Origin: a bacterium
GTDB lineage: Bacteria; Electryoneota; AABM5-125-24; Hatepunaeales; Hatepunaeaceae
Reading direction: 5' to 3'
Assembly: GCA_013202285.1 (NCBI GenBank)
Contig: JABMRV010000166.1
Span: 1 to 41,763, forward strand
DNA length: 41,763 nucleotides
A program made the translations under genes and the position numbers. Every line of letters starts with the position of its first letter. Within the stretch, counting starts at the first letter, position 1. Positions 4,269 to 41,620 of the stretch are shown here, piece by piece. The notes beneath the pieces were generated by a model. That model worked only from the letters and a program-made list of their open reading frames with translations, was not told where the DNA came from and ran no database searches.

Positions 4269-4298
4269 ATTGAAGACCTGACAGCAACAATAAAATAA

Positions 4299-6182: not shown

Positions 6183-6808
6183 TTCTTGCCTTTCTTCGCA
6201 CCTTTTCCACTCTTGGAGGAAGCATCGATACGTTTGCTTATAACCTTATCAATCAAACCATATTTCCTCGCCTCTTCAGGCGTCATAATGTTGTCACGAT
6301 CGGTATCTTTGGCGATCTTCTCAACTGACTGACCGGTGGCTTCTGCCAGTATTTTGTTCAATCGGTCACGTGTTTTGAGCAGCTCCCGGGCATGGATATC
6401 GATGTCCGAAGCCTGCCCCTGCATGCCTGCCATCGGCTGATGGATGACGATCTTCGAATTCGGCAGCGCCGATCTCTTGCCCTTGGTGCCGGCAGCAAGG
6501 AGTAAGGCGCCCATCGATGCCGCTGAACCGATGGCTATGGTGGCAATGTCCGGCTTGATGTAGCGCATCGTATCGTATATTGCCATTCCCGATGATACCG
6601 TTCCACCGGGAGAATTGATATAGATCGATATATCCTTATCGGGATCCTCGGCTTCGAGGAATATGAGCTGTGCTATTACCAGGCTGGCAACGTTATCGTC
6701 GATGCCGCCGGCAATAAAAATTATTCTTTCCTTGAGCAGACGTGAATATATATCGTAGGCTCTTTCGCCGCGACCGGTCTGCTCGATTACCATTGGTACG
6801 AGGTTCAT
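6179..6808 (-). CDS. clpP: ATP-dependent Clp protease proteolytic subunit ClpP
   Basis: The 209-residue serine protease has the catalytic triad S98 (GSAASMGA), H123 (VIHQPM) and an Asp in the DRDN segment (about 172). SIYINSPGG and the [12 protein letters not shown] segment are typical of ClpP. It forms the 14-mer degradation chamber that works with ClpX, encoded next with a 4-nt overlap. The C-terminus is a lysine-rich tail ([11 protein letters not shown]), somewhat longer than usual. It lies 53 nt downstream of tig. Confidence 0.97.
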
Positions 6809-6861
6809 TCGTTTGCTCCGTTTATTCTTTCTTGAAAATAACTGTTAGGAAAACAGCCCTT

Positions 6862-26200: not shown

Positions 26201-28786
26201 ATGGTGGATGTTGAGATCGAAGAGGATGACGACGAAGTCTTAGTCGCCAACCTGTACAATCATTTCATGGATCCGGACGAAGATGTGCTCATTTTCGACG
26301 CCGTACCTGCAGAAGACTGGTTGTTCATCAGGATCACCAATGCGGATCTCTTCATCCAGCCTGCAGAGGATGCATTCGGTGATGCCATTGAAGTGGTCGT
26401 TTCAGCCACCGACGGCTTTGATACGGTCACGGATACTTTCCTGGTAAACGTCGCAGCAGTCAACGATCCGCCTCGTCAGCGCGTCGCCATTCCTCTTGAG
26501 ATCATTCTCTACGAGGATCCGGGTTTGCAGACAATCGCCGATCTCGATACCGTCTTCATTGATGTTGACAATCAGGAAGACCTGACCTATCGAACCACAG
26601 GCGGCGACGATCTCCAAGTCAATATCGACGATGAGCATGTCCTCACCTTCGATCCGGTTGAGAATTGGTTCGGTGTGCAGACATTCTCGCTGTGGGTTGG
26701 TGATGTCGTTGAAAACATCGGACCGGTGCGTCATTCTGATGATTACAGCACGTCATTCAACAACGAATGGTACGGACAGTCATCGACGCCGAGACGCGAT
26801 GAGGAGACCTCAATCGACATATTAGTCGAGATTCTTCAGGTTAACGATACGCCGATTGTATTCGCTCCTATTGAAGATCAGCAGTTCTTTGAAGACCAGG
26901 GACCCTGGCTCGTAGCCGATCTCGATGATGTCTTCCTCGAGCTTGAAGGTGAAATTATGAGCTATACCGCTCAGGCTGCCGAACCGCTCACTTATTTCAT
27001 CGATAATGATAACGTTCTGTTCCTGGATGCACCTCTGGACTTCTTTGCCGACAGCTTGCAGGTTACAGTCACGGCGGAAGACCCGCATGGTGATTCTGTT
27101 TCCGACGACTTCCTCGTCGATGTGATCTATACCAGCGATCCCCCAGTTGTAATTCAGCCGATCGACGACCGCACCTACGACGAAGACAGTTGGCCCTGGG
27201 AGATCATCGATCTGGACGATGTGTTCTACGATGCGGATCGTGATACGCTCCAGTATGACGTGACTGTTGCTGAACCGATCATTTTCGAGATCGACGATGA
27301 CAACATGCTGATCCTCACCGCTCCGGACGACTACCAGGCGGCTGATATCGAAGTTATCGTTACAGCGGATGACGGTCATGGCGGAAATCGTACAACCTCG
27401 TTCCGCACTGTGAGATCACTGAGATCCACCAATCGTACTTCCGTTGGTCCTGTTCGTCAGATGCGGTCGACCCATACCGGATGGACAACCTCACCGATGG
27501 ACGATCCCAGGCGAGACCCCATTATCGATGAGCCGTTCACTCTTACTATTCTGGCGGTCAACGATGCACCGGTATGGACTGAAATACCCGACTCTCTATT
27601 ACATAACGAGGAAGAGGTAGTTGAGTTCATTGTTGCAGCCGGAGATATTGATCTCGATAACGAAGGAGATGTTCTCACCCTGACGCTGGAGAATGACGAC
27701 GGCACGCTTGAACGCGGTGCTGAGTTCATCGTTAACGGCGGCATTGACGGAATGTTCACCTGGCTGACGGATTTCGAGGATGCCGGCGATTATCACCTCG
27801 TATTCAAGGTCGAAGACCTGGCTGGCACAGCGATTACTCACACGGTGTTCATCTCGGTCGGGAACGTAAACCGCCCACCGGCTGTCATAGCCGGTATTGC
27901 TGACCAGGAGTTCGATGAGGACTCAGGTCCCTGGGAAATTGCCGATCTGGACGATGTCTTCTCCGATCCGGATGCGGATGCACTCGAATTCAGTATCAGC
28001 GCTCCTGAGCCGCTTGTAGTCGTTGTTGACGACGAACATCTGCTCTCGATCAGCGTACCTGACAACTACAATGCAACAGGCTTGTCGATACTGATAACAA
28101 CCTCCGACGGTGCTGCCGTTGCCACAGATACATTCATGGTTGACATCAACTTCGTCAACGATCTACCGACAGCCTTCTCGCTGGTCTCTCCATACGACCG
28201 TCAGGTGCTCACCAACGAATGGGCTATGTTCAAATGGACGGAATCGGTCGATGTGGTTGAAGATTCAACGATAAGCTATGCGCTTGTTCTGACATTTAAC
28301 GACACGACGACACTCTGGTTCAGAGATCTTCAAGAGACTGAACTGCTCGTTGCCAGAACCATAATGCTGGTAGATTCAGCCGATACCAATTACGTTGAAT
28401 GGATGGTCTATGCATTTGACGGAGTCGATTCGTTAGCAAGTACGGAAACGTTTGACTTGATCGTAGCGCCCATCGGCGAGGATGCGGAAGAGGAGGTCAT
28501 AGTGCCGACAGAACTGACACTCGGACCTGCATATCCGAACCCGTTCAACGATATTATTACCATCGAATTTGATCTGCCGTGGGATGGTATGCTTGAAATA
28601 AGCATCTTTGACATCGAAGGTCGTAAAGTTAAAACGCTGTACAATGACGACCTGAATATAGGTTCACATCACACTTACTGGGATGGGCTGGATGCAGGAG
28701 GTGAGAGAGCTTCATCGGGAATCTACTTCTGCCACCTGAGCACGCATTCGAGCACGAGGATAATTCAGATAATCCTTATCAGGTAA
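11285..28786 (+). CDS. Giant multidomain surface protein with T9SS-type C-terminal sorting domain
   Basis: This is a single uninterrupted 5,833-codon frame. After a Sec signal peptide (residues 1-25, ending VQAQ) come a GDEIGVFTPDG-type module and two choice-of-anchor-D/ASPM-SPD-2-Hydin-like domains. A second GDE module, three more anchor-D domains and a cadherin-like domain follow. Next are 22 tandem Ig/cadherin-like repeats (14012-20407), a third GDE module, another anchor-D domain and GDE modules four and five. Four more repeats (about 21736-22884), an Ig-like block (22885-25605), cadherin-like repeats with DWFG and DLDDVF motifs (25608-28150) and a fibronectin-like domain complete the stalk. 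The last 88 residues (YPNPFN, FDIEGRKV, SGIYF, ending in basic RIIQIILIR) are a T9SS/FlgD-like sorting domain. The composition is strongly acidic with many DPDGDDLT loops that could bind calcium. Probable roles, by inference, are adhesion, surface layer or cell contact. GGAG precedes the ATG, and two terminators follow. Confidence 0.93.
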   Translation: MKRFNICFGLLVTCLILTSSAVQAQHFEPANDEGPSHSLIIQSATIDDQELGNNDEIGVFTPDGVCAGSVVIADDPPHGLAAYGDDPGTPDDVEGFLEGEEFSFKLWDGQDEVEAHFEFVGETQTWEQDVVTSIARIFFYNDPIPVIGLDTFEHDFGLMGVDHTAEWILTITNIGFGELTISDVYPSNQVFDTDFENEIILQPAESHDLLVTFTPSSEDNFAGTLTIENDDPDNDQIMVNLTGSGTNVIEPLMALSHQTLDFEEWPTELIRTLVLTISNAGTGDLTIDNIVVEGNLFDTDWDGNDIVITPQQSHDLSVTFAPEAVELYEGSLTISSDDPGGEAIVDLVGIGIDPQTHFRYVETDLDHSLLIVNSTLNGEPLEPGDEIGVKTEDGVCAGGDVVEERGEQIGFGAFGRSGNIDGFTAGEEISFFIWDMSSDIEVEATPDIHVGSIEWVDRGLAILDLEAETPFAPYITVSPEVLDFGQIGSGYEGYEYLQIRNIGTDYLRVTNIVSDDPDHFDPYFRVGFIVRPGGSRWVRVTFTPDDITTFDAQLTIYSNTPGNEEMTVDVTGEGIDPPAMIDVNATEYDFGEVLVDEVATWDLIITNIGGEDLTIQAVQSDNNVFTHDYSDGETVLQPDESLTVEVTFAPVAYINYMGTLTIFNDDPDQEDQELGINLSGSGLLLPDITVDPLILSFRNIEINTSASRDVTITNDGDANLWIYDISVTGEYLTVDFDGEFFLAPGEEHIFQAHFNPTELGDWEGRITIESNDENEGPVNILVILECIFINYPPEVVEPIDNQVLQEDFDGVRVADLLQIFADENDDELFFTVEDNQEQFTTEIQEGHYVYMEADQDWFGVVTVTVTADDQFGGRDLGPVRSLRTVGNQGIFPGRDTPTSHEFDVEVQAVNDSPVWTEFPEDFIEDEPALIEFNMAGTDVEGDDLSIVYASETIPDAAQFNDNGDGTASFYWQTTFFDAGDYTATFTLSDYEYDVEAVLNISIADINQPPEWVDFIDSVDGFEGEELTIDLVGFDLDENDLTIVYSSDDLPEAVEFTDHGDGTGTFVWTPTYDEEGDYTAIFTLSDIEFDVVGEIAISIANVNRAPVWDDIPTETINIDEEDVVDFTMVASDPDGQDLTISYNPNGTPDAAQFNDNGDGTATFYWETTLDDAGNYIPIFTVTDGDLEVEAEVVIMVGETNQPPVWENIPETAEGNENTTIEFTMEASDQDEDELEIVYTSGDLPDGVNFTDHGNNTATFSWDAGYDDAGEYTATFTLLDGFWEVSHDVAITVNNINRPPVWDSIPGDYTVDEAALIEFTVVGSDPDVEDEVTITYDPDGLPEGVEFTDQGDGTATFYWQTWYEDAGQYVINFTISDGVENVVSNDVIIIVNNVNAPPYFIDPIEEYYASEQELIEIGFEAADYDGDDITLTFTRGSLPDDVHFTDHGNGTGILVWQTDHDDAGRYNCQIRASDDGGHSITHLDIIVSDVNMAPTWEYAPAIITIEETEFFDLTVIGEDLDGDDLTIEYESDDIPEEAEFTDHGDGTATLTWQTGYEDAGVYQATFTISDGEISVPTIVRITVNNLNRVPVWDVIPEDVVADEDDLVEFVMSGHDPDGSDLTITFSSHNLPLDVSFTDFGNGRGEFSWQTSFDDAGDYTATFTLSDGEDMVDIDVDITIGNINHEPEWVDIPPAVHAPNEGDLILFDVFGEDVDDDELIITYRSDDLPGGEDFTDHGDGSGTFEWQTGGGHTGIYFVTFILSDDEFDIEEVVIITVGDVNRPPEFTRIPGSIQIGENSLLEFSIEAMDPDDDNLTIDFTSDDLPEEAQFTDHGDGTGDFSWQPTYDEAGLYLAVFTLSDGIYNIVGEVQIRVNDVNQAPEWTQVPRTFAGDETTIITFDVSGIDADDDYLTITFDSEDPALRDAAEFTDNRDGTGRFRWVTTYDDAGIYYATFRLSDGVYTVSEVTTIRVNNVNREPVWDIYPDYMTIDEGVLINFLVRAIDPDGTEDLELSYTHVGIPDVARFTDHGNGYGIFTWQTNYDDEGRYWARFAVTDGELEATVSVRIDVEYLNREPYWVGVPDPIEGIEGLEDEVITFNVAGDDPDDDADLSISYYSDDLPDDVDFTDNRDGTGTFNWMPDFDDSGEYLAIFTLSDDEAEVTTEVPITITHVNRAPEWDDPPRLIQINEGEELQLTVAGIDPDGDELSVAYRGGDISRLETEFADHGDGSGTLTWHPDFDQSGEYAANFELSDGRFRVELTVTIIVNHVNRPPEFVEIPERAEADEGQWVAFSLEVFDPDDDDISVIMESENLPVDVSFSFNPENGTGTFTWQTDYEDEGDYVATFTVSDGPVSISEDVSITVNHVNVAPFWTNVPDVVEGDELVQIQFLVQGGDIDDDDLTVEYSSDDIGDDATFRDFGNGAGRFTWRPGFDDQGDHHATFTLSDGEFSIVTEVLIIIENVNREPVWDEIPIEIFADENDWIEFDMSGSDPDGDDLIIRLVPGDLPNIAHLTDNGDGTASFEWQTGYNDAGTHTATFILSDGVTDVAGTTTIIIDNVNRPPRWISVPVFDDRFDEGDLVSFLIRGYDPDGDDLTLEYSSNDLPEEVEFVVESPGLGSFSWQTTNEDWGLYYADFTLSDGVETIEAPVQIAVGDVNRPPQLEDVPGAISVDEGNRISFTIYGTDPDYDRLTLTYSSDDLPENVEFSTRFIEGRLEGTFLWETGFGDAGEYSALFTLSDEEIEIEAQVDITVESVNHSPYWVVMPDVVDAVEAEFFSFGIAGEDPDGDDLTITFTSDNLPEDATVSDRGDGTGQFLWITTYDDAGSYSVSITLSDGELSVTEDVVINVTNANRPPIWTVVVEEIRSEEDEIIVFDLAGTDPDGDRLAIHYERNNIPDEARFVDNLDGSGVFRWRPNYLDAGVYSALFTLSDGDLGVELETSIIVEDVNRPPIWTDYPAVEYDIIARVDEETSISITAIDPDGDAIEYDYRFLDEEIGDTDFEVVDGSAVLTVVPNRFEFDSYPIRFTASDGEQSARLEFNIFVFGGHFLAEEETGRMHSVRIDWIDHYLNDPDEFDELAAITPAGTIAGLITFGEEDPPWSMTIWGDDPATHLIDGYRTDEPFRFLFWDHDLGVENGVRTEVVGGDPVWRHDGFSVLRMLIAPEVSATVANVDFGLVRIERSSDREITFTSTGQAPVTGLQLNLEGIGFELDDDGPVDLDQGEEWTVTITFSPGEAIDYAAMLHVTSDYTQLDMEITGTGVRMRNFEYEITSLYHQIDILSIDVGREIGIFTPVGMCAGAVNIAGDAPWELYAWGDDPETLPVEGFRTGDAFTFKIWDGNEELDAMPIYHDGIHTWAAGALTVVSLVTAEHHFNWITTRPQHNIEIDSLDYFGGGLSAGDEIAVVNPRAVVSGGIYRHLAPWRFVIYGDNPNTDYITEGFHENEHIYFRIWKHDEEREYLARPTWRDGDPQTFQDGETSHVYLTVVRDNVAPIFDPMESLVGQEGQLLEFSINASDFNDDAISLALVGVDLPENVIFTDAGDGSGTVSWEPGPMDAGAHVAQFTAFDGWVFREDEVSIRIININHPPEFTEALADQEVDENEPLSMFIDAFDQDGDDLTYTVELAEGMEGAYIDGSLFRWTPNYDQAGFYEDIIFRIVDNGQPPAAITDTIQITVNDVNRGPVWREINPITEDEGALVNFTVFATDPDGQDLELTAGDLPENAEFIDNGDNSGTFNWETGFDARGRYQPYFDASDGELSARLPVLITIRETNRRPIFEAIEDQQVEINETLELSINATDPDEGDQVELVITVSNLPPSAHFTDYGNGVARLVWRPSFEDRGIYPNVGFEVSDPSGLSDHATVVFTAGYVDDVGPVIADLYPGNDLVLRISELTVTAMITDNFSGVDEIEFMFDDEAIDNFLFDEESGEFSWDTEALSEGNHSYSIRATDVVGNSTIVAVAFEINSSAGEINLEPLDRFTNYDRINVSGTSDRFLTIHLFRNGEEIVSTEADRRGRFLFENVQLVNRANWLVLRGYELINNEQVAALEDSLMIYLDIEAPEINVLGPARFINDLTPQIAVRIADVDAGNAVGIDEETGAYLALDRVNIPIDDGDNGGYQFFNNLLTYDIPEDLIEGHHSFSVMAVDRLGNAPNDPFDVPFFVDSYPPEVLHRYFDNELDTINSSTPEINIAVVDPLPSSGIVGDDIILLVDGEPRAFVWNEADGSVYFDFEDNEFDRLDAGLHRIELDLFDNAGNRTVATGEFFIGLTIDGDPPDYTNLKPPDGSVAGLGGGGYDMQPYRLPADTVSAVISDIDAGVDWETVEMRINGELVDGGDMIFQIPPGRVSVPMYNRAPGDHQGDDEMPGLEEGLNEINIFSADEEGNEDEVTWVFFFDATAPDGVELQPLDDDIVNTVAIEVVVNTGGDSPDYPDGYENIASVRIYRNNEVTVEQIVEYNTQDITITGILLVEGDNTLEATLIDGGGNESARSEAVSVFLDMTDPNIVSFQAEGGRLLATDTPTFVAILADDGSGVDPDNIVLTVDGDAVEGQFDNGTFTAQVQDALEEGNYTASLTVIDMAGNESSEDFDFNIDLSLVQTPIFELHQYTSVNRVYLTGEGQVGTDVFIYLDDEEIGSFFLENEAVFEFSRTIVDLPDESSITLKAINDRDAESGVSDPQMLYIDQDPPEFVSLSPDRNERVNAAELESIDVEIVDELAGIDPEGYIFTMNGEDLLFNVTGDGQLTADVSDVDFGDNEAVSMMVSARDMTLTPNTGQVNWQFITLINDAPVVDIPDAEFLEDGSLTINLNEWISDPDNSIDELDISGEITEGAENAEMNINEQNMLQISADENWNGNLTVEITVVDPDELSTTDEIAITVAPVNDSPVLDPLDIAVTIADELFELQVNASDVDEGDDLTFSDNSDDFDIGVDDGMISFIPTRDMLGRNTIVITVTDEAGAADDETLILIVNRGINPPELVQPMVDVEIEEDDDEVLVANLYNHFMDPDEDVLIFDAVPAEDWLFIRITNADLFIQPAEDAFGDAIEVVVSATDGFDTVTDTFLVNVAAVNDPPRQRVAIPLEIILYEDPGLQTIADLDTVFIDVDNQEDLTYRTTGGDDLQVNIDDEHVLTFDPVENWFGVQTFSLWVGDVVENIGPVRHSDDYSTSFNNEWYGQSSTPRRDEETSIDILVEILQVNDTPIVFAPIEDQQFFEDQGPWLVADLDDVFLELEGEIMSYTAQAAEPLTYFIDNDNVLFLDAPLDFFADSLQVTVTAEDPHGDSVSDDFLVDVIYTSDPPVVIQPIDDRTYDEDSWPWEIIDLDDVFYDADRDTLQYDVTVAEPIIFEIDDDNMLILTAPDDYQAADIEVIVTADDGHGGNRTTSFRTVRSLRSTNRTSVGPVRQMRSTHTGWTTSPMDDPRRDPIIDEPFTLTILAVNDAPVWTEIPDSLLHNEEEVVEFIVAAGDIDLDNEGDVLTLTLENDDGTLERGAEFIVNGGIDGMFTWLTDFEDAGDYHLVFKVEDLAGTAITHTVFISVGNVNRPPAVIAGIADQEFDEDSGPWEIADLDDVFSDPDADALEFSISAPEPLVVVVDDEHLLSISVPDNYNATGLSILITTSDGAAVATDTFMVDINFVNDLPTAFSLVSPYDRQVLTNEWAMFKWTESVDVVEDSTISYALVLTFNDTTTLWFRDLQETELLVARTIMLVDSADTNYVEWMVYAFDGVDSLASTETFDLIVAPIGEDAEEEVIVPTELTLGPAYPNPFNDIITIEFDLPWDGMLEISIFDIEGRKVKTLYNDDLNIGSHHTYWDGLDAGGERASSGIYFCHLSTHSSTRIIQIILIR
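14012..20407 (+). repeat. 22 tandem Ig/cadherin-like (He_PIG type) protein repeats
   Basis: Within the giant gene, 22 units of about 97 residues follow each other without spacers. Each begins N-R/Q-P-P-x-W and contains DPDGDDLTI in its first half. FTDHGDGTGTF then W-Q-T, then YDDAGxYxATFTLSDG follow, and the unit ends with an alternating Val/Ile strand and D/N-V-N. The last unit (from about 20116) is divergent. The units differ at many positions, so the array is old or under selection for diversity and not freshly amplified. Four related units lie at 21736-22884 and one at about 27556-27868. Confidence 0.88.
28500..28786 (+). other. C-terminal secretion/sorting domain of the giant protein
   Basis: A short acidic linker is followed by LGPAYPNPFNDIITIEF, an IFDIEGRKVKTL strand, HHTYWDGLDAGG, SSGIYFCHL and a basic hydrophobic end. 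This is the pattern of T9SS type A sorting domains and the related FlgD-Ig-like fold in FCB bacteria. It predicts that the protein is moved across the outer membrane by a type IX system, with genes that must lie elsewhere. Confidence 0.85.
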
Positions 28787-31400: not shown

Positions 31401-31781
31401 TTAACTCGTTAACTTTTTTACCAGATTGAGAAGTTCATCTTCGTCTATTGGTTTGGAAAGGTAGCCTTCCGGTGCGGGAACTTGTTTTCGTGATGAGATG
31501 AAGTTCTTGAAATCATCGGAAATCCCTGTTATGATAATTATCGGAATGGATTTCCACTTGTCGTTTTCACGTAGAGTCCTGTAGAACTTGACACCGGACA
31601 TTTCAGGCATGGTTATATCGAGAGTAACGAGATCGGGCAGCATCAGATTCATCTTGGCAATACCTTCATCACCGTTTTCAGCAGTGATAGTGTTGTAGCC
31701 GTTATCTTCGAGAAGACTTACAAAATAGGTCAGGGTATCCGGTTCGTCGTCAATTATCAGAATTGTCTTTTGGTCGTCCAT
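31401..31781 (-). CDS. Stand-alone CheY-like receiver protein
   Basis: The 126-residue receiver has the acidic pair D11-D12, phospho-acceptor D55 (LDITMPEMSG) and K110 (YLSKPID). There is no output domain. It shares a less common stretch before the lysine, PxPEGYLxKPxDED, with the receiver fused to the DsrK-like protein at 33322-35055. The two receivers are therefore close paralogues and could be substrates of the same kinase, encoded 25 nt upstream. It may act as a phosphate sink, a competitor or a carrier to another protein. Confidence 0.92.
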   Translation of the reverse strand: MDDQKTILIIDDEPDTLTYFVSLLEDNGYNTITAENGDEGIAKMNLMLPDLVTLDITMPEMSGVKFYRTLRENDKWKSIPIIIITGISDDFKNFISSRKQVPAPEGYLSKPIDEDELLNLVKKLTS

Positions 31782-31806: not shown

Positions 31807-33234
31807 TTATTTAGGATCGATTGATTCCAAGGCAACACTTCTACGGGGAATCGTTACAGTAAACTTGCTTCCCTTACCGGCTTCAGAATCGATTTGAATC
31901 GATCCCCCATGCGAGTTGGCGATCTTATTGGCGATGAATAATCCCAGTCCGGTTCCCTCATGACCTTTTGAAGAGAAGAACAGACTGAACGCTTTCTCTT
32001 TTGTTTCCTGTTCCATGCCGATGCCGTTGTCCTCGACCTCGAACAGGATTTCATCAGGATTGCTTTTCAAGCGAAAACAGACTTGGTGATGATCTTTCTT
32101 ACGGTCAACCCTGCATGCATCGAGTGAGTTTTCAAGAAGGTTTATCAATAGCGATCTTATCGCCTTGGCATCAACATCGAACTTCCCTGAGTCTTCCTGC
32201 AATTCGGTTTTAAGATCGATATTGAGTTCTGTGGCTTTCGTTTCAACTACTTTTATAACTTCATCTGCGAGATCCAATATGGAAACATGCTCCCAGTTCA
32301 TCTCCCGATCCTTGGCGTAATAAAGAATATCGAGTACCATGCTGCGGATGCGGTTGATATTGCGCATGACTATTTCCCAGCCTTTTTCAAGGCGGTCACG
32401 GTTGTCATTCTGCAAACCTTTGTTCACCAAGTAGATACCACCGTTCAAGCCGTTCAGCAGTCCCTTGATGCCATGAGAGATTGAACCGATAAGCAATCCG
32501 ATCGAGGCGAGCTGATCCTGCAGTTCGCGAATCTGAGTGATATCCGAGGTCATTTCGATGACATTTATTATTTTTCCCGTGGCGTCTCTGATGGGGGCAG
32601 TGTGGACGAGAACGTTCATTGTCTTACCCTGGAGTGATGTGACCATCTCCTCGTGAAAATGCACTTCACCATCGGCAAAGGTCTGTCGAACCGTGCATGG
32701 ATAACATTCTTCAGTTCGATGCTTGTAAGCTTCGAAGCATTTGCGACCAAGTGAGTTTCCAAAGGCTTCAAGGTGGAGTCGATTAGCGTGGACAATATTC
32801 AGATCGGCATCCTGAATCGATATGAAACAGGGAACTTCCTCAAAGAGCATCTTGTAGCGGTTCTGGCTTTCACGAAACTGTTTCTGCAGGGCTTTAATCT
32901 CGGTGATGTCCGTTGACATCTCCATCACCGCGATTATTTCACCATCTTTATTCCGAATCGGAGTGGTATATACGATGACTGAGACGTCGGTTCCATCGAG
33001 GCATCTGACCTGTTCTTCGCTTGAATGTTGCTGACCGTCACGAAAGGTTTTTTCAACAGTGCAAACCTCGCACTTCTCTGAGCGACCCTTATACACCTGG
33101 TAGCAGTATCTTCCCTTATAATCCCCGAAATCTTCTATGAACCTTCTATTTGCCGTAATGACGCGCAGATTACGATCCTGTACCGTGAGGTAGCATGGCA
33201 TTTCATCGAAGTAATCTCTATAAGGTAAATCCAT
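31807..33234 (-). CDS. Soluble sensor histidine kinase with two cysteine-bearing PAS domains
   Basis: The 475-residue kinase has PAS1 (about 8-115) with C44, C55 and C58, and PAS2 (about 128-238) with C166, C177 and C180. Both share the pattern C-(F/Y)-x2-Y-x6-C-x2-C-T-V-x2-TFxDG. The kinase core follows: H254 in SISHGIKGLL, N box LLINLLENSLDA (about 362-373), DNGIGM (402-407) and GTGLGL (427-432). No membrane segment is seen, so it senses a cytoplasmic signal. Three-cysteine PAS domains are known from anaerobes and suit a metal, iron-sulfur or thiol redox signal, but the ligand is not shown here. It lies between the receiver-fused DsrK-like gene and the stand-alone receiver gene, both likely partners. 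Confidence 0.92.
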   Translation of the reverse strand: MDLPYRDYFDEMPCYLTVQDRNLRVITANRRFIEDFGDYKGRYCYQVYKGRSEKCEVCTVEKTFRDGQQHSSEEQVRCLDGTDVSVIVYTTPIRNKDGEIIAVMEMSTDITEIKALQKQFRESQNRYKMLFEEVPCFISIQDADLNIVHANRLHLEAFGNSLGRKCFEAYKHRTEECYPCTVRQTFADGEVHFHEEMVTSLQGKTMNVLVHTAPIRDATGKIINVIEMTSDITQIRELQDQLASIGLLIGSISHGIKGLLNGLNGGIYLVNKGLQNDNRDRLEKGWEIVMRNINRIRSMVLDILYYAKDREMNWEHVSILDLADEVIKVVETKATELNIDLKTELQEDSGKFDVDAKAIRSLLINLLENSLDACRVDRKKDHHQVCFRLKSNPDEILFEVEDNGIGMEQETKEKAFSLFFSSKGHEGTGLGLFIANKIANSHGGSIQIDSEAGKGSKFTVTIPRRSVALESIDPK

Positions 33235-33321: not shown

Positions 33322-35055
33322 TTATGCGAGTTCGAGGATTTTTCGGACGTTCAGCATTAAGGTGTCTTCATCCACCGGTTTATCGAGATAACCTTCCGGT
33401 GGAGTAACTGGGCGGTCATAGATAAGTCTCCGCAATTCCGGTCTCCCCGTGATGATACACACCTTAATACCAGCGGTCGCCGGGTTGTTGCGCAACTCTT
33501 CAAAAACCTTGCCTCCATCCTTGCCCGGCATATTGAGATCTAAAGTCATCAGGTCGGGTTTCTCCTTGAGAGCAAGTTCAACTGCAGTATCTCCATCGAG
33601 TGCTTCGAGTACTTCTGCTCCGTTGTCTTCAAGAACCGAGCTGAAAAACGTAAGGATATCCGGTTCATCATCAACGACGAGAATTTTATATCCCTTCAGG
33701 ACGGGTTCTTTCACTACTTCTTCAACCGCCGGTACTTCGACGATCACCTTCTTCTCAGGGATAATCAATGCGTTAGCTACCAGGTTCACGAGCTGGGACA
33801 CTTCCATTCCGAGCTTGTAATGCCTGATTACATCGGTCAAACCGTCCACGCAGTTATGACAGGATGTAACAACGATTTCAGCGCCTGTTGCTGTTAACTG
33901 ATCGGCTTTAACTTTTGCGGATTTGAGACGATTCGGCGTGTATTCCGACATCGACATTGCGCCGCCTCCGCCTGTGCAGCAGTAGTTCTCCGCACGATTG
34001 GGATACATTTCACGCCAATCCGTTACAACGAGTTCCAGAAGTTCACGTGGTTCTTCAAACAATCCGCAGCTACGGGCGTTATTGCAGGAATCGTGGAATG
34101 TTACCGGCGTGGTGTTTCTCGTTTTATCGACCTTTATTCTGCCTTCCCTGATGTACCTGAGCATGGTAATAACAGAGCTTTCCATCTCAAAATCTATATC
34201 CATACCAGCCCAGTTCGGTCCTTCGCAGCGTGTCGAACGGTAACCGTGACCGCATTCGGAGATCACTAATTTCCTGCCTTTAAGTTCACTAACCTTTTCA
34301 TACAATCGACGTGCAACAGCGCCTCCAAGCGCATCATCACCGGAGAACAGACCGAAATTCGTCATGTCCCAACCTTCGCTCGGCATAGTCCAGTTTTCAC
34401 CGGCATTATGAAAGATCTTGGCGGCATCGGCGATGGTGCGGGGATCGTACTTAACTTCTCGCGGATTGATTGAATAGACGACTTCACAGTTCATCTTATC
34501 TATAGGAATAATGGCTGTATCGTCCTCTAATTCCAACTGCAGTTCATCTGACATCCATTCCAGTGTATCGATATAATCTTCTTTGAGGACTCCCATCTGA
34601 TTGCCGATTTCCCACTGATCCTTGCTGACCACCGCAACACCTTCAGGCATAATACCGACCGAAACGAGCAGACCGCGTGTCATGCGGTTGTAAGTGGCGA
34701 AATCAACCCCCATCGGACAGTTTATGGAACAACGCCTGCAGTTAGTGCACTTCCCGAAGACGATATCCTTCAATTCCTCAAGTTCTTCATCGGTAAATAT
34801 ACTCTTCCCACCTACCCACCATGGGAATATCCTTCCCGTCCAGTCGAAATGACGTTTAAAAATCTTACGAAGTCTATCAGCTTTATAGGCTGGAGCGTAT
34901 GTGGGATCATCGGGATTAGCGAGGACATAGTGGCATGCTTCAGTACACATTCCGCAATGTACGCACGCCACCAGTGAACCGACCATCTGGCGATTTAGTT
35001 TCTGACCGAGACGTTCAAGAAATTTCTCTGCTTTGTAGGATCTATGTTTACTCAA
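33322..35055 (-). CDS. DsrK/HdrD-like iron-sulfur protein fused to a C-terminal receiver domain
   Basis: The 577-residue fusion has a first 4Fe-4S motif, C31/C34/C37/C41 (last Cys followed by His, not Pro), and a second, C103/C106/C109/C113 followed by Pro. The cysteine-rich catalytic part has SEC268GH, HDSC324N, NYC359C360TGGG and C399HNC402. A Val/Glu/Pro-rich linker (about 435-453) leads to a full receiver domain at 455-577 with D462-D463, phospho-acceptor D506 (TLDLNMPGKDG) and K559 (GYLDKP). The first part matches subunit K of DsrMKJOP and HdrD, and would exchange electrons with the membrane cytochrome b upstream. The receiver suggests that phosphorylation by the adjacent kinase controls catalysis or assembly. 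The start is TTG at 35055, overlapping the stop of a 35-codon ORF, with GGGG upstream. Fusion across an assembly join is unlikely because the frame is continuous and the linker is natural-looking. Confidence 0.88.
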   Translation of the reverse strand: MSKHRSYKAEKFLERLGQKLNRQMVGSLVACVHCGMCTEACHYVLANPDDPTYAPAYKADRLRKIFKRHFDWTGRIFPWWVGGKSIFTDEELEELKDIVFGKCTNCRRCSINCPMGVDFATYNRMTRGLLVSVGIMPEGVAVVSKDQWEIGNQMGVLKEDYIDTLEWMSDELQLELEDDTAIIPIDKMNCEVVYSINPREVKYDPRTIADAAKIFHNAGENWTMPSEGWDMTNFGLFSGDDALGGAVARRLYEKVSELKGRKLVISECGHGYRSTRCEGPNWAGMDIDFEMESSVITMLRYIREGRIKVDKTRNTTPVTFHDSCNNARSCGLFEEPRELLELVVTDWREMYPNRAENYCCTGGGGAMSMSEYTPNRLKSAKVKADQLTATGAEIVVTSCHNCVDGLTDVIRHYKLGMEVSQLVNLVANALIIPEKKVIVEVPAVEEVVKEPVLKGYKILVVDDEPDILTFFSSVLEDNGAEVLEALDGDTAVELALKEKPDLMTLDLNMPGKDGGKVFEELRNNPATAGIKVCIITGRPELRRLIYDRPVTPPEGYLDKPVDEDTLMLNVRKILELA

Positions 35056-35159
35056 TGATTTTCCCCGTTGTCGAACTCCTCATACCGTAATTTAAGCTCG
35101 GAAACGATGACATTCTTGTCGGCGGTACAGAGGAGTATGTTGTACTTTGAATTTATCAA
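35052..35159 (-). CDS. Small 35-residue ORF nested between the cytochrome b and DsrK-like genes
   Basis: On the minus strand a TTG codon (35159-35157) overlaps the TGA stop of the cytochrome gene. The frame runs 35 codons and its own TGA overlaps the TTG start of the DsrK-like fusion (TTGA in both junctions). The predicted peptide begins INSKYNILLCTADKNVI and ends DNGENH; it is charged and has one cysteine. It looks like strand 1 and helix 1 of a receiver domain but lacks the acidic pair, so it may be a relic or a true small subunit. Perfect stop-start overlaps at both ends argue for translation; the lack of a clear ribosome site and the double TTG usage argue against. I do not recognise a family. 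Confidence 0.45.
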   Translation of the reverse strand: MINSKYNILLCTADKNVIVSELKLRYEEFDNGENH

Positions 35160-35848
35160 TTTTGCTGTTTTTCAGGTTGATTGCTATGTTTCATAGGGTA
35201 AATTCCTCTATATCCCATGGTCTTTCCGAAATAATATCTGGTGAATGGGTAATACAAATAGTGTGAAATTTTGCTGAAGGGGACGTAAATCAGGAAGAAT
35301 GCAGTCAGAATGAAATAGATCAACAGGATTGTTTCACCCTTCTCATGCTGATTGGGGACGGATAGAAATGCGAAGAAAAACCAGACGGTTAGAAGAATCA
35401 GTGAGAAGTAATCGTCTGGTGTGCTGATGGAACGCATGACAGGTTTGGATATCCGCCTGACAATCCGCATTATTGCTATGATGAAAGCCGCCCCGATTAC
35501 CACTTGGAATAGAAGAACTATTCCTTTATTATTAAGGATATTACCGAGATAAGGTATGATGACTGACAATGCTATTGCGGCTGTCACCCCCATGTGAAAA
35601 ACCCCAAACTGAAACCACATCAGGATGTGTTTTTGCGTGCTTTCCATTGACCAGGGCATAAAAATGTTTGCCCAGGAGTAGATGATTCCCTTTTTTGGTG
35701 TAGTGCCGATGACACCGGTTGGGGCTTGTCTTTCACGACCTGCCTTGAACCTCATCAGCCATATTATGCGTATCGTGTAAACGGATGCCATTATAATCAG
35801 GGCGATCTCTTGAAGTCTATGTTCAGCGAAATGCAGTAATTCGCTCAT
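35156..35848 (-). CDS. NarI/DsrM-like membrane cytochrome b subunit (second copy)
   Basis: The 230-residue membrane protein has about five hydrophobic segments: an N-terminal one near ALIIMASVYTIRIIWL, then those around FGVFHMGVTAAIAL, LLFQVVIGAAFIIAI, LILLTVWFFFAFL and TILLIYFILTAFFLIYV. Candidate haem b ligands are His residues in LLHFAEHR, QKHILMWFQFGVFHMG and FSKISHYLYYPF. The C-terminal FTRYYFGKTMGYRG end is basic and cytoplasmic. It is shorter than the cytochrome at 1672-2586. It is encoded just before the small ORF and the DsrK-like fusion, which would be its electron partner. This order (membrane subunit, then iron-sulfur subunit) matches that of the first module. Confidence 0.85.
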   Translation of the reverse strand: MSELLHFAEHRLQEIALIIMASVYTIRIIWLMRFKAGRERQAPTGVIGTTPKKGIIYSWANIFMPWSMESTQKHILMWFQFGVFHMGVTAAIALSVIIPYLGNILNNKGIVLLFQVVIGAAFIIAIMRIVRRISKPVMRSISTPDDYFSLILLTVWFFFAFLSVPNQHEKGETILLIYFILTAFFLIYVPFSKISHYLYYPFTRYYFGKTMGYRGIYPMKHSNQPEKQQN

Positions 35849-35877: not shown

Positions 35878-36408
35878 CTATGCCAGAGACTGTAGAGCTT
35901 CCAGGAACGGTGTGTACTCCCTGGTGTCCAGTGGGCAGACAACGATCTCTTCAAGGTTAGTCTCTCCTTCGAGATATTCCTTGATACTCTGCAACATGAT
36001 ATCAGCGCACATCGGCAGGGGGGTTCCGTAGAAACCGGCTCCCATCGGCGGAAAAGCAAGTTTTTTGATTCCCTTTTCTTCCGCCTTTTTCAGGCTGTTC
36101 ATCATGGTTGTCTTCAGTTTAGTTTTGGTGTCTTCTTCCTGAAATTTGGGTCCGACAGCATGAACTATATAATCAGCCTTCATCTCTCCGGCTTTGGAGA
36201 CATAAACATCTCCGATATTCAGCTCCTCGACCTTCTCCAGTTCCTCCTTGATAGATGGTCCGCCGCGCATCGAGATAGAGTTACCAAAACCCGATCCAAG
36301 TACAAGATCAGACGTGGCGTAATAGACAAATGCTTCAATATCCAAGTCGGTTATATCTCCTTTTACTAATCGGATGATACTGTGATTGATATGTTTACTG
36401 TCAGACAT
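35878..36408 (-). CDS. Macro-domain protein (ADP-ribose-type binding fold)
   Basis: The 176-residue single macro domain has the nucleotide-binding start VKGDITDLDIEAFVYYAT, the diphosphate loop SGFGNSISMRGGPSI, the YIVHAVGPKF strand and the second loop FPPMGAGFYGTPL. The classical NAAN tetrad after the second strand is YYAT here, so the catalytic asparagine of ADP-ribosyl hydrolases is absent. Binding of ADP-ribose, O-acetyl-ADP-ribose or another nucleotide is still plausible; hydrolysis is doubtful. It lies between the MerR regulator (78 nt upstream) and the cytochrome gene (29 nt downstream) and is probably in their operon. It could link NAD-derived metabolites to the redox complex (inference). 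Confidence 0.85.
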   Translation of the reverse strand: MSDSKHINHSIIRLVKGDITDLDIEAFVYYATSDLVLGSGFGNSISMRGGPSIKEELEKVEELNIGDVYVSKAGEMKADYIVHAVGPKFQEEDTKTKLKTTMMNSLKKAEEKGIKKLAFPPMGAGFYGTPLPMCADIMLQSIKEYLEGETNLEEIVVCPLDTREYTPFLEALQSLA

Positions 36409-36485: not shown

Positions 36486-36986
36486 TTATTGGCTTTTTCC
36501 CCTGGTACGGAATGTATCGTGCAACAGCGGTTTGAGATCTTCGGTACAATAAATGCTGAATCGATAAACTACGCATTTACTACAACTTGGAATAACTGCG
36601 CATCCTTTATGTTGATGTAATACCCAGCAGGGTCTTTCGGAACTCACAGTCGCCGGGCAGTTTTGACGATGATCCGGAAAACACTCCTTCAGCTCCCAGC
36701 ACGGTATTAGTGCCCAGATACGCAGGATACCTTCTATATTCAGACCTTTGGTTTTAACCAGATACTGTATCTTGCGAATTCGTTCAATATCTTCAAATGA
36801 GACCATACGACGGTTTGTCTTAGTACGGTAGAAGACAATCAATCCGGCTGCCTCGTACTTCCGAAGAGCAGACTCGGAGAGCTTGGTGATTCGCGCTGCT
36901 TCTCCTATATACATCACCGGATCGTCGGTATCAACACTTAAGATCGGAGAGTGTTCCTGAAACCAGTCACTTATGTAGCTGTTCAA
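36486..36986 (-). CDS. MerR-type transcriptional regulator with C-terminal eight-cysteine domain (paralogue 2)
   Basis: The 166-residue protein aligns without a gap to the regulator at 974-1471 through the DNA-binding domain (YIGEAARITKLSESALRKYE, wing RTKTNRRMVSFEDIERI) and the cysteine domain. C96, C102, C110, C120, C129, C135, C138 and C147 stand at the same eight residue numbers. The two proteins are most similar in residues 38-100. The cysteine set could bind zinc or an iron-sulfur cluster. It is the first gene of the minus-strand cluster ending at 30360 and is preceded by a 13-bp inverted repeat at 37009-37039. Its position next to a DsrMK-like module repeats that of paralogue 1. Confidence 0.86.
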   Translation of the reverse strand: MNSYISDWFQEHSPILSVDTDDPVMYIGEAARITKLSESALRKYEAAGLIVFYRTKTNRRMVSFEDIERIRKIQYLVKTKGLNIEGILRIWALIPCWELKECFPDHRQNCPATVSSERPCWVLHQHKGCAVIPSCSKCVVYRFSIYCTEDLKPLLHDTFRTRGKSQ

Positions 36987-37497: not shown

Positions 37498-38295
37498 ATG
37501 AAAAAACTGGACATCCATCTGTCAGAGGTTCAGGCTGTCTATGACGGCGCTGAAGGAGTGCTCTGGGAACTCATCATGGGCGAACAGATCCATGTGGGCG
37601 GTTTCAAATCAAGTATGGAGCTTGCCACCAGAGCAGGTATCAAGGAAGGCATGCACGGCATTGATCTGTGCTCGGCGCTGGGCGCGGGTTGCCGCTTCCT
37701 TGCCAAGAATTTCAATGTAACCATGGTCGGTTATGACGGAACAACCACCATGATTGAGAAAGCCAAAGCTCGGACTACAGAGGAGGGCTTGGGCGAGATG
37801 ATCGAAAACCGGATGGGAGATGTGACGTCGATTTCATTCGGCGACGGCGTCTTCGACTTTGTATGGGGTGAAGATGCCTGGTGTTATGTTGACGACAAGG
37901 CGAAACTGATATCGGAGGCAGTGCGGGTACTCAAACCCGGCGGGATACTCGCCTTTACCGACTGGATCGAAGGTCCCAATTCTCTCTCCGATGAGGAAGC
38001 CGAACGAATCTGTACTTTTATGAAGTTTCCTTACTTGCAGAACCGTTCGGGGTACGAGGAACTTATCAGATCTCACGGACTGACCATCACTGAGAGCACG
38101 GATCTGACTGAGGAGTTCGCGGGATATGTCGATTTTTACATCAAGATGCTGACCGACCAGCTTACTTTTGATGCACTCAAAATTATCGGCGACAATATGG
38201 AGCTTTTCCAGGCAATGGGTGGTGAAATGGCATTCATGGCAGAGAAAGCTCACGAAGGTAAAATGGGGCGCGGTCGCTTCATCGCCAGGAAGTAG
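37498..38295 (+). CDS. SAM-dependent methyltransferase, sarcosine/dimethylglycine N-methyltransferase-like
   Basis: The 265-residue class I methyltransferase has SAM motif I as GIDLCSALGAG (54-64), D80 for the ribose, GDV (107-109) for the adenine, VWGEDAWCY (122-130) and LKPGGILAFTDW (145-156). The N-terminal VYDG...GEQIHVGGF segment and the GEDA motif match sarcosine/dimethylglycine and related N-methyltransferases that lead to glycine betaine. The usual DIGAGYG is DLCSALGAG here, with an unusual Cys at 58. A strong ribosome site, GGGAGG, precedes the ATG. It is the first gene of an operon with a corrinoid protein, a UroD-type methyltransferase and a corrinoid activator. It may therefore act on a methylamine-type compound or on a corrinoid methyl group (inference). 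Substrate unknown. Confidence 0.82.
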   Translation: MKKLDIHLSEVQAVYDGAEGVLWELIMGEQIHVGGFKSSMELATRAGIKEGMHGIDLCSALGAGCRFLAKNFNVTMVGYDGTTTMIEKAKARTTEEGLGEMIENRMGDVTSISFGDGVFDFVWGEDAWCYVDDKAKLISEAVRVLKPGGILAFTDWIEGPNSLSDEEAERICTFMKFPYLQNRSGYEELIRSHGLTITESTDLTEEFAGYVDFYIKMLTDQLTFDALKIIGDNMELFQAMGGEMAFMAEKAHEGKMGRGRFIARK

Positions 38296-38398: not shown

Positions 38399-39043
38399 TT
38401 GAAAGAGATTTACGAGCAGTTGGCTTCCGCCGTTCTGGAGATGAAGAGCGGCGAGGTCGAACGCCTTGCGCATCTTGCTCTCAAGGAAGGTTATCCTCCC
38501 GAAGAGGCAATCGAGCAGGGTCTGGCAGCCGGTATGAACGAAGTAGGTAAGTTATTTGCTTCTAAGGTGTATTTCGTGCCTGAAGTCCTTGTATGTGCCA
38601 AGGCGATGTATGCCGGCTTTGACATTCTGAAAGAGAAGGTTGTCTCAGGATCTCTCAGTAGAAAGGGGAGCATCGTTATCGGTGTCGTCGATGGCGATTT
38701 TCACGACATCGGCAAGAACATCGTGAAGCTGATGCTCGAAGCAGCGGGATTCAGAATTGTTGACTTGGGTAAGAATGTTACTCACGACCGGTTCTGTGAA
38801 GCCGTGGCAGCGGAAAAACCGGATATTGTGGCGATGTCAACATTGATGTCAACGACGATGGACAGTATGTCGGATACTGTTGCTTCGCTGAAAGGACGAT
38901 TTCCCGAGTTGAAACTGATGGTTGGAGGCGCTCCGGTGGACGATAGTTTCTCCAGGTCGATCGGCGCACATTTCTACGGTGAGGATGCCCGGCGAGCGGT
39001 CGAAGGCGCTCATGATCTTATGGGAATACCCTTTGAAGGATAA
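38399..39043 (+). CDS. Corrinoid (B12)-binding methyl-carrier protein
   Basis: The 214-residue protein has an N-terminal four-helix cap (1-88, MNEVGKLFASKVYFVPEVL) and a Rossmann B12 domain with the DxHxxG motif as D100-F-H102-D-I-G105. H102 is the lower axial cobalt ligand. STL (147-149) and MVGGAPV (175-180) complete the corrinoid pocket, as in MtaC/MttC/MtbC. It carries a methyl group between a substrate methyltransferase and a second methyltransferase. The start is TTG at 38399, directly after the GGGATGA repeats. It overlaps the next frame if that gene begins at 39012. Confidence 0.94.
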   Translation: MKEIYEQLASAVLEMKSGEVERLAHLALKEGYPPEEAIEQGLAAGMNEVGKLFASKVYFVPEVLVCAKAMYAGFDILKEKVVSGSLSRKGSIVIGVVDGDFHDIGKNIVKLMLEAAGFRIVDLGKNVTHDRFCEAVAAEKPDIVAMSTLMSTTMDSMSDTVASLKGRFPELKLMVGGAPVDDSFSRSIGAHFYGEDARRAVEGAHDLMGIPFEG

Positions 39044-40031
39044 GGTTTTCCACAGGATGTTTCCCCAGTTTCAGGATCGCGGTTATGCCCGCGGACCCAT
39101 GATCGCAGCCGATCATCTGTCTTTCCTGCTTCGGAAACCTCTTGACGAGGTTTGTCGGGACGGAAAACTGTTGGCGGAAGGTCTTCTGTATACGCGAAGA
39201 CTTTATGGATCGGATTTGGTCATTGTCTTTTCGGATATAAATCTTGAAGCCGAAGCGCTTGGGGTAAAATTAGAATACTCTCCTGACAGAAATCCCCATA
39301 TTATTGAGCAACTGCTGCCTCGGGATGTTAAAGTAATCGACATGCCGACTGGAGGCAGTATCCCCGAACTTTTCAATGCTGCAGCGATCTGCCGCAAAGA
39401 GCTGGATAGTGGAATTCCTGTCTTTTTTTCCATGAAGGACCCGTTTAGTTTGGCTGCGCTGGCGATAGGGACGGAAGCCTTTCTGATAGCGCTGCTTGAG
39501 GAACCGCGGATGGCAATGGATCTGCTTGAAGTCTGTTGTGAGAACCAACAGCGGCTAATCGATGCTGTTTGCTCAGAAGGTTATATCCCGTTGGTGGGTT
39601 CGCCTATTGCTTCCGGCAGCGTTATCGGACCGGCATTTTTTCAAGAATTTGCCGAACCGGCGATCAGGCGGGTTCTGGATCGTGCGGAGGAAGCGGATTC
39701 GTTTCGCTGCATGCATATCTGCGGCGAAGTAAGCGTACTGATCGAACAGATATATTCATTGAAACTCGATCTTCTAAGTTTTGAGGAGTGGCACGCTCCG
39801 ATGTGGGGGCTCCTTCAGGATACGATACCGATGGGTTATTTATCAACTTATTTATTCGTGAAAGGTGATGAAGAAACCATCGAGAGAGCGACAATGGAGT
39901 GCATGGCGAATCTGCCGAAACCGTTCATACTATCAAGTGGCTGCGATATTCCGGCGAATGCCGATCCGGAACTTGTGGTGCGAATGATGAACGTGAGTCT
40001 GGTTCGAAGTAAAAAAAATCTATCCAATTAG
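39012..40031 (+). CDS. UroD/MtaA-type cobalamin methyltransferase
   Basis: The protein belongs to the uroporphyrinogen-decarboxylase fold family and is about 340 residues from the ATG at 39012. The zinc site is H235-x-C237 (MHICGEV) and C311 (SSGCDIP), typical of MtaA, MtbA and the O-demethylase MtvB type and not of true heme UroD. GSPIASGSVIGPAFFQEFAEPAIRR is a family signature region. The N-terminus is short against the usual MtaA start. The ATG at 39057 is an alternative, just after the corrinoid stop at 39041-39043, while 39012 has GAAGG upstream. It probably moves a methyl group to or from the corrinoid protein, most likely from a zinc-activated thiol or other substrate. No MttB- or MtrH-type partner is in the window. 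Confidence 0.86.
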   Translation: MILWEYPLKDKVFHRMFPQFQDRGYARGPMIAADHLSFLLRKPLDEVCRDGKLLAEGLLYTRRLYGSDLVIVFSDINLEAEALGVKLEYSPDRNPHIIEQLLPRDVKVIDMPTGGSIPELFNAAAICRKELDSGIPVFFSMKDPFSLAALAIGTEAFLIALLEEPRMAMDLLEVCCENQQRLIDAVCSEGYIPLVGSPIASGSVIGPAFFQEFAEPAIRRVLDRAEEADSFRCMHICGEVSVLIEQIYSLKLDLLSFEEWHAPMWGLLQDTIPMGYLSTYLFVKGDEETIERATMECMANLPKPFILSSGCDIPANADPELVVRMMNVSLVRSKKNLSN

Positions 40032-40036
40032 ACTTT

Positions 40037-41620
40037 ATGCCCGAATATAAAATCACAATCGAAACGGATGGCAGTATAATCACCTCACCCGGTGAGGAGA
40101 CCATCAAGGAAGCCCTCGAACGGGAGGGCTATTATTTTCCCAATAACTGTGGCGGTAAGGGGAAGTGTCTCGGCTGTCGGGTGAAATTTATTTCTCATCC
40201 ACCTGAAATGACGGAGTTGGAACAAAAACTTCTTGATCCACACAGCGCTGAGAGGATGGCATGCCAACACAGGCTGACGAGTGATATTCAGATCAGTGTT
40301 CAGGGATACGAGGCTTGGGACAATCTCAAAGCGTTATCCGATTTCAGGATTGAATGCGGAGGAACAGGCTACGGAATAGCGGTCGATCTTGGCACGACAC
40401 TGGTTGCTGTTTACCTTGCAGATTTACGTAATGGTAGTGTTATTGCCCAGAAATCCTTCGTAAATCCACAGCTTCCATTCGGCAGTGATGTCATGTCGCG
40501 GCTCGAATCGATGAGGGATGTTGAAAAACGCCGTAGAATGGTCGATCTGATCCGAAAGCGAGTTGGCAGTGTAATTCTATCTGCGCTGAGAGATAGCAAT
40601 ATTGATGTGAATGATGTGAACAGTCTGTTTCTGGCGGGAAACAGCGTTATGACTCAGATCTGGCTGGGATATGAAGATACCGGACTATCAAGAGTACCCT
40701 TTACAAGCATACTTGAAGGACGAGGTTCAATCGCTTTCGAACCGGCGCTGGTTGGACTACCGGATAGCTGCCGCTGCCGGATCGTTCCGGTTCTAAGGGG
40801 ATTCATCGGCGGAGATACCACTGCGGCAATCCTCGCCACCGATCTTGACGTATCGATTCCGGGCTCAGATAATCATCGAGAAACAGGGAACAGACTCCTG
40901 ATCGATCTCGGTACTAACGGCGAGATCGTCTTGTCGGCAAATGGGCGGTTGAGGGCGGCATCCACCGCTGCTGGTCCTGCATTCGAGGGAGTGGGAATGC
41001 TTGCCGGAATGCCTGCCATAACCGGTGCAATTGAAGGATTTACGGAAACCGGAGAACCCAGAGTTATTGGCGGTGTGAAACCGCTCGGTTTATGCGGTTC
41101 GGGATATATCTCAGCGATCTCGCTCCTGCTGCGAGAGGGAATAATATCATCGTCGGGACTGATGAAGGAGGACAGGGAAGGGGAGAGGCGCTGGTCGTTC
41201 GGATCTGAGGCGAATCTTCCGCCTTTCATTGTACAGGATGATGTTCGCAGATTCCAGCTTGCCAAAGGCGCTGTTGCCGCAGGAGTGGAAATCCTCTGCC
41301 TGGAAGCCGGAATCGTTTCAGATGATCTGGATGAGATTATATTGACGGGATCATTCGGCAGTCGGATCGATCTGCAGGCTGCGAGAGACATCGGATTAAT
41401 TCCCGATACAAACCTTGACAGAGTCTCACTGATTGAAAATGCTGCCGGACGCGGCGCTCTGCTCTGCCTGAGCGAAGACAGCATGATAGAGAGAGCCGAA
41501 GAGCTTCAACGGACAGTTGATGTTATCAATCTCGGCGAAAGAGATGATTTCCAGGACAGGTTTGTCGAGAACATGACCTTGGGACGTTGTCATGCCCGTG
41601 AAAACGGGCATCCAGATTAA
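40037..41620 (+). CDS. RACo-type reductive activator of corrinoid protein
   Basis: The 527-residue protein has an N-terminal 2Fe-2S ferredoxin domain (C38, C44, C47, C76; spacing C-x5-C-x2-C). An ASKHA-type ATPase part follows (GYGIAVDLGTTLVAVYL, GGDTTAAI, LLIDLGTNGEIV, ENAAGRGALL). Such activators use ATP to drive Co(II) to Co(I) reduction when the corrinoid protein is inactivated. It begins 6 nt after the UroD-type gene. The natural end seems to be around FQDRFVENMTLG; the last 11 residues (RCHARENGHPD) and the stop codon come from a palindromic repeat at 41592-41611. The gene closes the operon. Confidence 0.93.
   Translation: MPEYKITIETDGSIITSPGEETIKEALEREGYYFPNNCGGKGKCLGCRVKFISHPPEMTELEQKLLDPHSAERMACQHRLTSDIQISVQGYEAWDNLKALSDFRIECGGTGYGIAVDLGTTLVAVYLADLRNGSVIAQKSFVNPQLPFGSDVMSRLESMRDVEKRRRMVDLIRKRVGSVILSALRDSNIDVNDVNSLFLAGNSVMTQIWLGYEDTGLSRVPFTSILEGRGSIAFEPALVGLPDSCRCRIVPVLRGFIGGDTTAAILATDLDVSIPGSDNHRETGNRLLIDLGTNGEIVLSANGRLRAASTAAGPAFEGVGMLAGMPAITGAIEGFTETGEPRVIGGVKPLGLCGSGYISAISLLLREGIISSSGLMKEDREGERRWSFGSEANLPPFIVQDDVRRFQLAKGAVAAGVEILCLEAGIVSDDLDEIILTGSFGSRIDLQAARDIGLIPDTNLDRVSLIENAAGRGALLCLSEDSMIERAEELQRTVDVINLGERDDFQDRFVENMTLGRCHARENGHPD
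41592..41611. repeat. GAAA-loop palindrome inside the RACo 3' end
   Basis: ATGCCCGT and ACGGGCAT pair around GAAA. It is of the REP-like class seen at 10835-10850. The reading frame of the corrinoid activator runs through it and stops 7 nt later. Confidence 0.75.

Follow-up and report, generated by a model that had tools for sequence, protein, structure and literature searches.

Can a respiratory iron-sulfur enzyme carry its own two-component receiver, and what might such a receiver control? The question is raised by a gene in the window, the 41,763-nucleotide stretch of DNA analysed here (contig JABMRV010000166.1 of assembly GCA_013202285.1, from a bacterium of the phylum Electryoneota). A preliminary description had proposed that a redox subunit with CCG cysteines is joined in one frame to a receiver at 33322-35055. 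These coordinates are correct, and the gene lies on the minus strand: a single frame of 577 codons runs from a TTG start at 35055 to a stop at 33322, with an ATG at the same start position in a same-phylum relative (83% identity).

Domain architecture of the fusion protein

Based on Pfam, NCBIfam, a family alignment and AlphaFold2, the 577-residue protein can be divided into three parts: a reductase core with two 4Fe-4S sites and a CCG region (residues ~1-435), a flexible linker (~436-455) and a receiver (residues 456-577; 33325-33690, minus strand). The matches to Fer4_8 (residues 29-117, 42.7 bits), CCG (318-402, 41.9 bits) and Response_reg (458-570) each exceed the gathering score, and chance is excluded for the CCG and Response_reg matches. 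The 4Fe-4S motifs are C31-C34-C37-C41 and C103-C106-C109-C113, and the catalytic CCG motif is C324-x34-C359C360-x38-C399xxC402. The Fer4_8 and CCG cysteines are invariant in the family alignment and, with the Pfam scores, place the protein in the CCG/4Fe-4S dicluster superfamily; the first half of the CCG region retains C268 and C277 only. The receiver is a member of PF00072 by score (65.8 bits, cut-off 30.2) and by its residues, namely an acidic pocket (D462, D463), a phospho-accepting aspartate (D506), the T/S position (T536), an aromatic (Y556) and a lysine (K559). The 4Fe-4S and CCG cysteines, D462/D463, D506 and K559 had all been named beforehand, and each is found where it was placed.

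AlphaFold2 gives the fusion a mean pLDDT of 92.7 and a pTM of 0.73 with 94 sequences (pLDDT 64 with an alignment of 15 sequences; the prediction is of a single chain). Residues 439-448 of the linker fall below a pLDDT of 50 between two well-folded parts, and the linker sequence varies among homologues. Since the linker is both variable and predicted to be disordered, a fixed contact between the domains is not predicted. A fold search matched the reductase core to EtfD (9ojn), which is the best solved-structure neighbour of the fusion, and to HdrB-like subunits, and matched the receiver to DivK, RR468 and many other receivers; a sequence-profile search was in agreement.

The enzyme had been described as DsrK/HdrD-like. 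The reading as a CCG-domain protein stands, whereas membership in DsrK, TmcB, HmcF or HdrD was rejected. The fusion scores 244 bits against the DsrK model (NF045796, cut-off 400), 308 bits against TmcB (NF045724, cut-off 735; it also forms a separate clade in the enzyme tree) and 332 bits against HmcF (NF045711, cut-off 750). HdrD/HdrB-type proteins require two complete CCG motifs, and the fusion has one (318-402). Because it falls below every NCBIfam cut-off and has one complete CCG motif, we treat the fusion as a separate sister family.

Distribution and conservation of the fusion

When 84,980 species genomes were scanned with an alignment built from 15 fusions, 143 relatives were confirmed. 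The best 80 of the 143 match both domains, nearly all at full length (~residues 1-577, 64-83% identity, few being cut by contig ends). As labelled, these 80 come from at least 15 phyla (Zixibacteria, Acidobacteriota, Myxococcota, Thermodesulfobacteriota, Planctomycetota, Calditrichota, Gemmatimonadota, Electryoneota, LCP-89, Ignavibacteriota, Bacteroidota, Pseudomonadota, Hydrogenedentota, Poribacteria and Elusimicrobiota) and from unclassified bins; single phylum labels may be wrong because the records are metagenome bins. Restriction of the fusion to one phylum was rejected on this spread. The family is present in 16 of 39 genomes of its own phylum, and the match extends through the receiver in 15 of the 16 carriers (one being cut N-terminally by a contig end). 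The exception, genome G006 (L134), has a deletion that removes the receiver and all but the last residues of the kinase, which now follow the CCG core in frame. This deletion (L134 5821-7182; also L053) is either a natural loss or an assembly error, and an apparent receiver loss at L138 is due to two Ns at an assembly gap.

The preliminary description had allowed for a frame break near 33693. No such break is borne out: the frame continues across this junction in same-phylum homologues (77-83% identity) and in nearly all of the best 80 of the 143 loci, and a frame-break artefact was rejected. By their labels, nearly all of these 80 records are metagenome-assembled genomes. Even so, the assemblies, made independently in dozens of studies, concur, and three of the records (L096, L118 and L122) are at chromosome level. 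They already refute an origin of the fusion in faulty assembly or annotation, to which we give practically no weight.

The residues expected of a working receiver are nearly universal in the alignment of the best 80 of the 143 relatives: D462 in 79/80, D463 in 80/80, D506 in 79/79, T/S536 in 79/79, Y/F556 in 78/78 and K559 in 78/78. In closely related pairs with measurable dS, the dN/dS of the fused receiver is 0.03-0.15, a ratio that places it under purifying selection. The parts of the fusion are of known kinds, and the attachment of a receiver to a respiratory subunit of the CCG class is a new variant; no description of such a fusion was found in the open-access literature searched.

A conserved cassette around the fusion

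The fusion lies within a cassette whose order on the minus strand is macro-domain protein, TmcC/HmcE-like membrane protein, fusion, two-PAS histidine kinase and free receiver. Counted over the loci with sufficiently long contigs among the best 80 of the 143, 76/76 have the macro gene, 79/79 the TmcC-like gene, 72/75 the kinase and 56/69 the free receiver. The joint conservation of kinase, receiver and membrane subunit speaks for a membrane electron-transfer module that is linked to signalling.

The membrane subunit (35156-35848, minus, 230 aa) scores 42 bits against TmcC and 38 bits against HmcE, both below cut-off, and has two invariant histidines, H85 and H196, as candidate heme-b ligands that would suffice for one heme b. 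The macro-domain protein (35878-36408, minus, 176 aa; Pfam Macro, 82.7 bits) lacks, in the consensus, the NAAN and GGGVDGAIHRAAG motifs usual in catalytic macro domains and is therefore probably a binder and not a hydrolase.

The kinase at 31807-33234 and the second receiver that had been noted beside the fusion are both genuine by Pfam. The kinase (minus, 475 aa) contains two PAS domains, H254 within SHGIK (present in 71/71 homologues) and HATPase_c (82 bits), as expected of a two-component kinase. Each PAS domain carries a C-x10-C-x2-C motif, and C44/C55/C58, C166/C177/C180 and H254 are invariant in ~71-73 homologues; the cysteine motif is also retained in kinases beside unfused relatives. 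These cysteine-bearing PAS domains suggest a redox or metal sensor, and Pfam called no membrane or extracellular sensor domain in the kinase. The free single-domain receiver (31401-31781, minus, 126 aa) is of the DVU0259/DivK type with D11, D12, D55 and K110. Neither cassette receiver has a DNA-binding output in Pfam or NCBIfam, so the signal of the cassette must act on proteins, and the tethered receiver would be the one best placed to act on its own enzyme. In L100 (9765-10157) and L109 (5423-5695), an extra free receiver directly follows the fusion in place of the kinase; L100 has a divergent kinase and two receivers nearby.

Also adjoining the cassette, here and in several relatives, is a MerR-type (HspR-like) regulator (36486-36986, minus; MerR_1, 49 bits), which is a possible regulator of the cassette. 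Its Cys-rich tail (CWELKECF...CPA...CW...C...C..C) may bind metal or an Fe-S cluster. Elsewhere in the window, on the plus strand, 11285-28786 encodes a 5833-aa repetitive protein with cadherin-like repeats and, by eye, a C-terminal FlgD-like or sorting-type end, and 38399-41620 encodes in a row a corrinoid protein, a methyltransferase-like protein and an AcsV-like corrinoid activation protein. This row is preceded by a methyltransferase gene at 37498-38295.

Association with dissimilatory sulfur metabolism

Gene position is stronger evidence for a dsr link of the fusion than co-occurrence. In Syntrophaceae UBA6112 (L086), for instance, the genes run dsrA-dsrB-dsrD-dsrN-dsrC-macro-TmcC-fusion-kinase-receiver and continue as dsrM2-dsrK2-dsrM-dsrK-dsrJ, the true dsrK (743 bits) being a separate gene of the same cluster. 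L093 and L102 share this layout, L107 shows the dsrAB-N-C and dsrM2K2 parts of it, and in the Zixibacteria loci L070 and L138 dsrAB-dsrN-dsrC lies directly upstream of the cassette. The cassette in Syntrophaceae and Zixibacteria is thus found directly after dsrAB...dsrC and usually before dsrMK(J). Overall, dsr genes or their homologues flank 23 of the best 80 of the 143 loci. Cluster membership is seen in related genomes; the dsrA of the window genome lies on a different contig (C225).

Co-occurrence points the same way, in tests that ignore phylogeny. DsrA is found in 40 of 46 carriers from many phyla (dsrA went undetected in the other 6), versus 20 of 199 Acidobacteriota background genomes, and in 8 of 9 Acidobacteriota carriers (Fisher p 3e-7). 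Within the phylum of the window, DsrA occurs in 14/16 genomes with the fusion versus 5/23 without it (p 7e-5), and DsrC in 15/16 versus 6/23. DsrD, a candidate marker of the reductive direction, is found in only 8 of 62 carriers. Judged by this genomic context, the fusion cassette belongs to dissimilatory sulfur metabolism, a link that goes beyond the preliminary description. In sulfate reducers, DsrMK is described as the membrane module for DsrC-trisulfide reduction, and paralogues dsrM2K2 are already known from the vicinity of dsrAB (PMC6018796).

Several other genes of this kind were observed. The window itself encodes, at 974-4205 (plus strand), a MerR protein, a NarI-like membrane protein and a DsrK-like CCG protein (307 bits to DsrK, cut-off 400), a set that resembles dsrM2K2; in L096 and L074 a MerR-NarI-DsrK2 set of the same type immediately adjoins the fusion cassette. 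Another contig of the same genome (L054 on C197, ~3958-7310) carries a DsrC-like gene, a TmcB-like CCG protein and a 229-aa tandem double-DsrC protein, and similar double-DsrC genes are present in many relatives.

Unfused relatives and the origin of the fusion

Two kinds of unfused relatives were found. Type B comprises three Desulfobacterota loci (45-49% identity) with the order TmcC - CCG - kinase as in the cassette and a TPR protein upstream in 2/2 loci tested. Two of the three (L181 and L182) have a separate receiver gene directly after the CCG gene, and this receiver is the one most similar to the fused receiver. Type C comprises seven loci (64% identity) with the order TmcC - CCG - universal-stress-like - HEAT, in which the fused receiver is absent and, where the contig extends, a free receiver and a one-PAS kinase come next. 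Since type C enzymes work without a fused receiver, the receiver is dispensable for the chemistry.

A neighbouring receiver gene was the likely source of the fused domain. The enzyme tree has type C branching between the early fused G077 (57%) and the main clade of fusions. In the receiver tree, G077 and the main fused receivers form one clade (support 99), the diverged L135 excepted, and type C receivers group with free receivers. The simplest reading of these trees is one fusion followed by loss of the receiver in type C; two fusions would be a less simple alternative. Unfused arrangements also persist beside fused ones: the contig of the DsrK-like paralogue in the window genome (L055) carries an unfused kinase and two receivers. 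G077 has, on the contig of its early-branching fusion (L184, 1467-6135, minus), a second TmcC-CCG-receiver-kinase set with an unfused receiver.

A model for control of electron flow, and its alternatives

The reading to which we give somewhat better than even odds is that the cassette encodes a DsrMK/TmcBC-like module linking quinone to a thiol, probably that of DsrC, in which a redox-sensing kinase switches the cytoplasmic subunit. The fusion would be the cytoplasmic subunit of a two-subunit membrane redox module, with the receiver covalently attached. The TmcC-like subunit would connect the quinone pool with the two 4Fe-4S clusters and the CCG non-cubane site, so that electrons are exchanged among them. 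The CCG site would act on a cytoplasmic thiol or disulfide, for which the DsrC trisulfide or a DsrC-like protein is the likeliest candidate. The cysteine-bearing PAS domains would let the kinase sense the redox or metal state, and the kinase would phosphorylate D506 of the tethered receiver. The phosphorylated receiver may then dock on, or release, the CCG core or a partner, raising or lowering electron flow, with the free receiver serving as a second target or phosphate sink. Phosphotransfer, the effect on electron flow, the electron partner and the sensed signal are each inferred.

The signal could also run in reverse, the redox complex being the sensor, so that the electron or ligand state of the CCG enzyme alters its tethered receiver or recruits the kinase, and the free receiver takes the output to other places in the cell. 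A kinase with no called membrane or extracellular sensor would then be tethered to the complex through the receiver, and the presence of a free receiver after the kinase in 56 of 69 assembled loci (best 80 of 143), and its retention in unfused relatives, fit such an output. We nevertheless regard this direction as unlikely because accepting phosphate and delivering the output is the normal role of a receiver, the kinase has Cys-PAS sensor domains of its own, and the free receiver is missing from 13 of the 69 loci, whereas the fused one is kept in nearly all of them.

The flexible, variable linker and the existence of type C enzymes would equally suit a receiver that leaves electron transfer unaltered and serves instead as a phosphate sink, or for docking or assembly, keeping kinase and free receiver close to the membrane complex; the near-universal phosphorylation and switch residues (T/S536, Y/F556) argue instead for phosphorylation-dependent switching and make this improbable. 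Fusion might also merely ensure co-expression, with the receiver targeting other proteins and its attachment incidental. Ordered neighbouring genes can fuse through loss of a stop codon, and unfused relatives with the same order exist. Yet the fused form persists across at least 15 labelled phyla with one main receiver clade (support 99), only one clear clade-level loss is seen, and enzyme and receiver are both under purifying selection, so that we hold incidental attachment to be very improbable.

Switching of the enzyme through its receiver would have wider implications. To our knowledge, control of sulfate and sulfite respiration has mostly been studied at the level of transcription. The cassette suggests that, in DsrAB-bearing organisms of many uncultured phyla, an electron-transfer step is under direct post-translational control, and that bacteria with the fusion may adjust respiration by signalling to the enzyme, beyond switching genes. 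More tentatively, with chances that we put a little short of even, the receiver in a dissimilatory-sulfur enzyme may represent a new class of two-component output that gates quinone-DsrC flow through a Cys-PAS kinase, with the macro protein as a nucleotide-sensing component. Since the receiver is physically part of the enzyme, its target is directly testable, and this offers a way to learn what the kinases and receivers that neighbour Tmc/Hmc genes do in classical sulfate reducers.

Comparison with known systems

Like DsrMK(JOP), the module pairs a heme-b-type membrane subunit with a cytoplasmic 4Fe-4S/CCG subunit, and in some genomes its cassette sits in dsr clusters beside dsrC and dsrMK. 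It differs from DsrK in carrying a receiver, and genuine dsrMK and dsrM2K2 occur separately in the same L086 cluster. Both cassette subunits have their top NCBIfam scores in the Tmc/Hmc systems (TmcB/TmcC, HmcF/HmcE), but both stay below cut-off, the fusion has ~35% identity to TmcB, the cassette is without a cytochrome c subunit, and the receiver is fused instead of separate. In Desulfococcus multivorans, the neighbours of the Tmc/Hmc genes include kinases, response regulators and a universal stress protein, an arrangement shared with D. vulgaris (PMC5109826).

In fold, the CCG reductase core is closest to EtfD of M. smegmatis (PDB 9ojn, E 1.1e-17), which we take to be a CCG ETF:quinone oxidoreductase, and to HdrD/HdrB. 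However, the aligned region is 20% identical to EtfD, the membrane part (TmcC-like) is encoded by a gene of its own, and the fusion has the additional receiver and only one complete CCG motif. The fused and free receivers both have DVU0259/DivK single-domain receivers as their top NCBIfam match, scoring 77.6 and 103.5 bits, respectively, below the cut-off of 160 for NF045717; unlike these, the fused receiver is covalently attached to an enzyme. Response regulators with enzymatic outputs, such as PleD and CheB, likewise join a complete receiver to a catalytic domain. In the fusion, by contrast, the receiver is C-terminal and its partner is a respiratory electron-transfer subunit, not a signalling enzyme.
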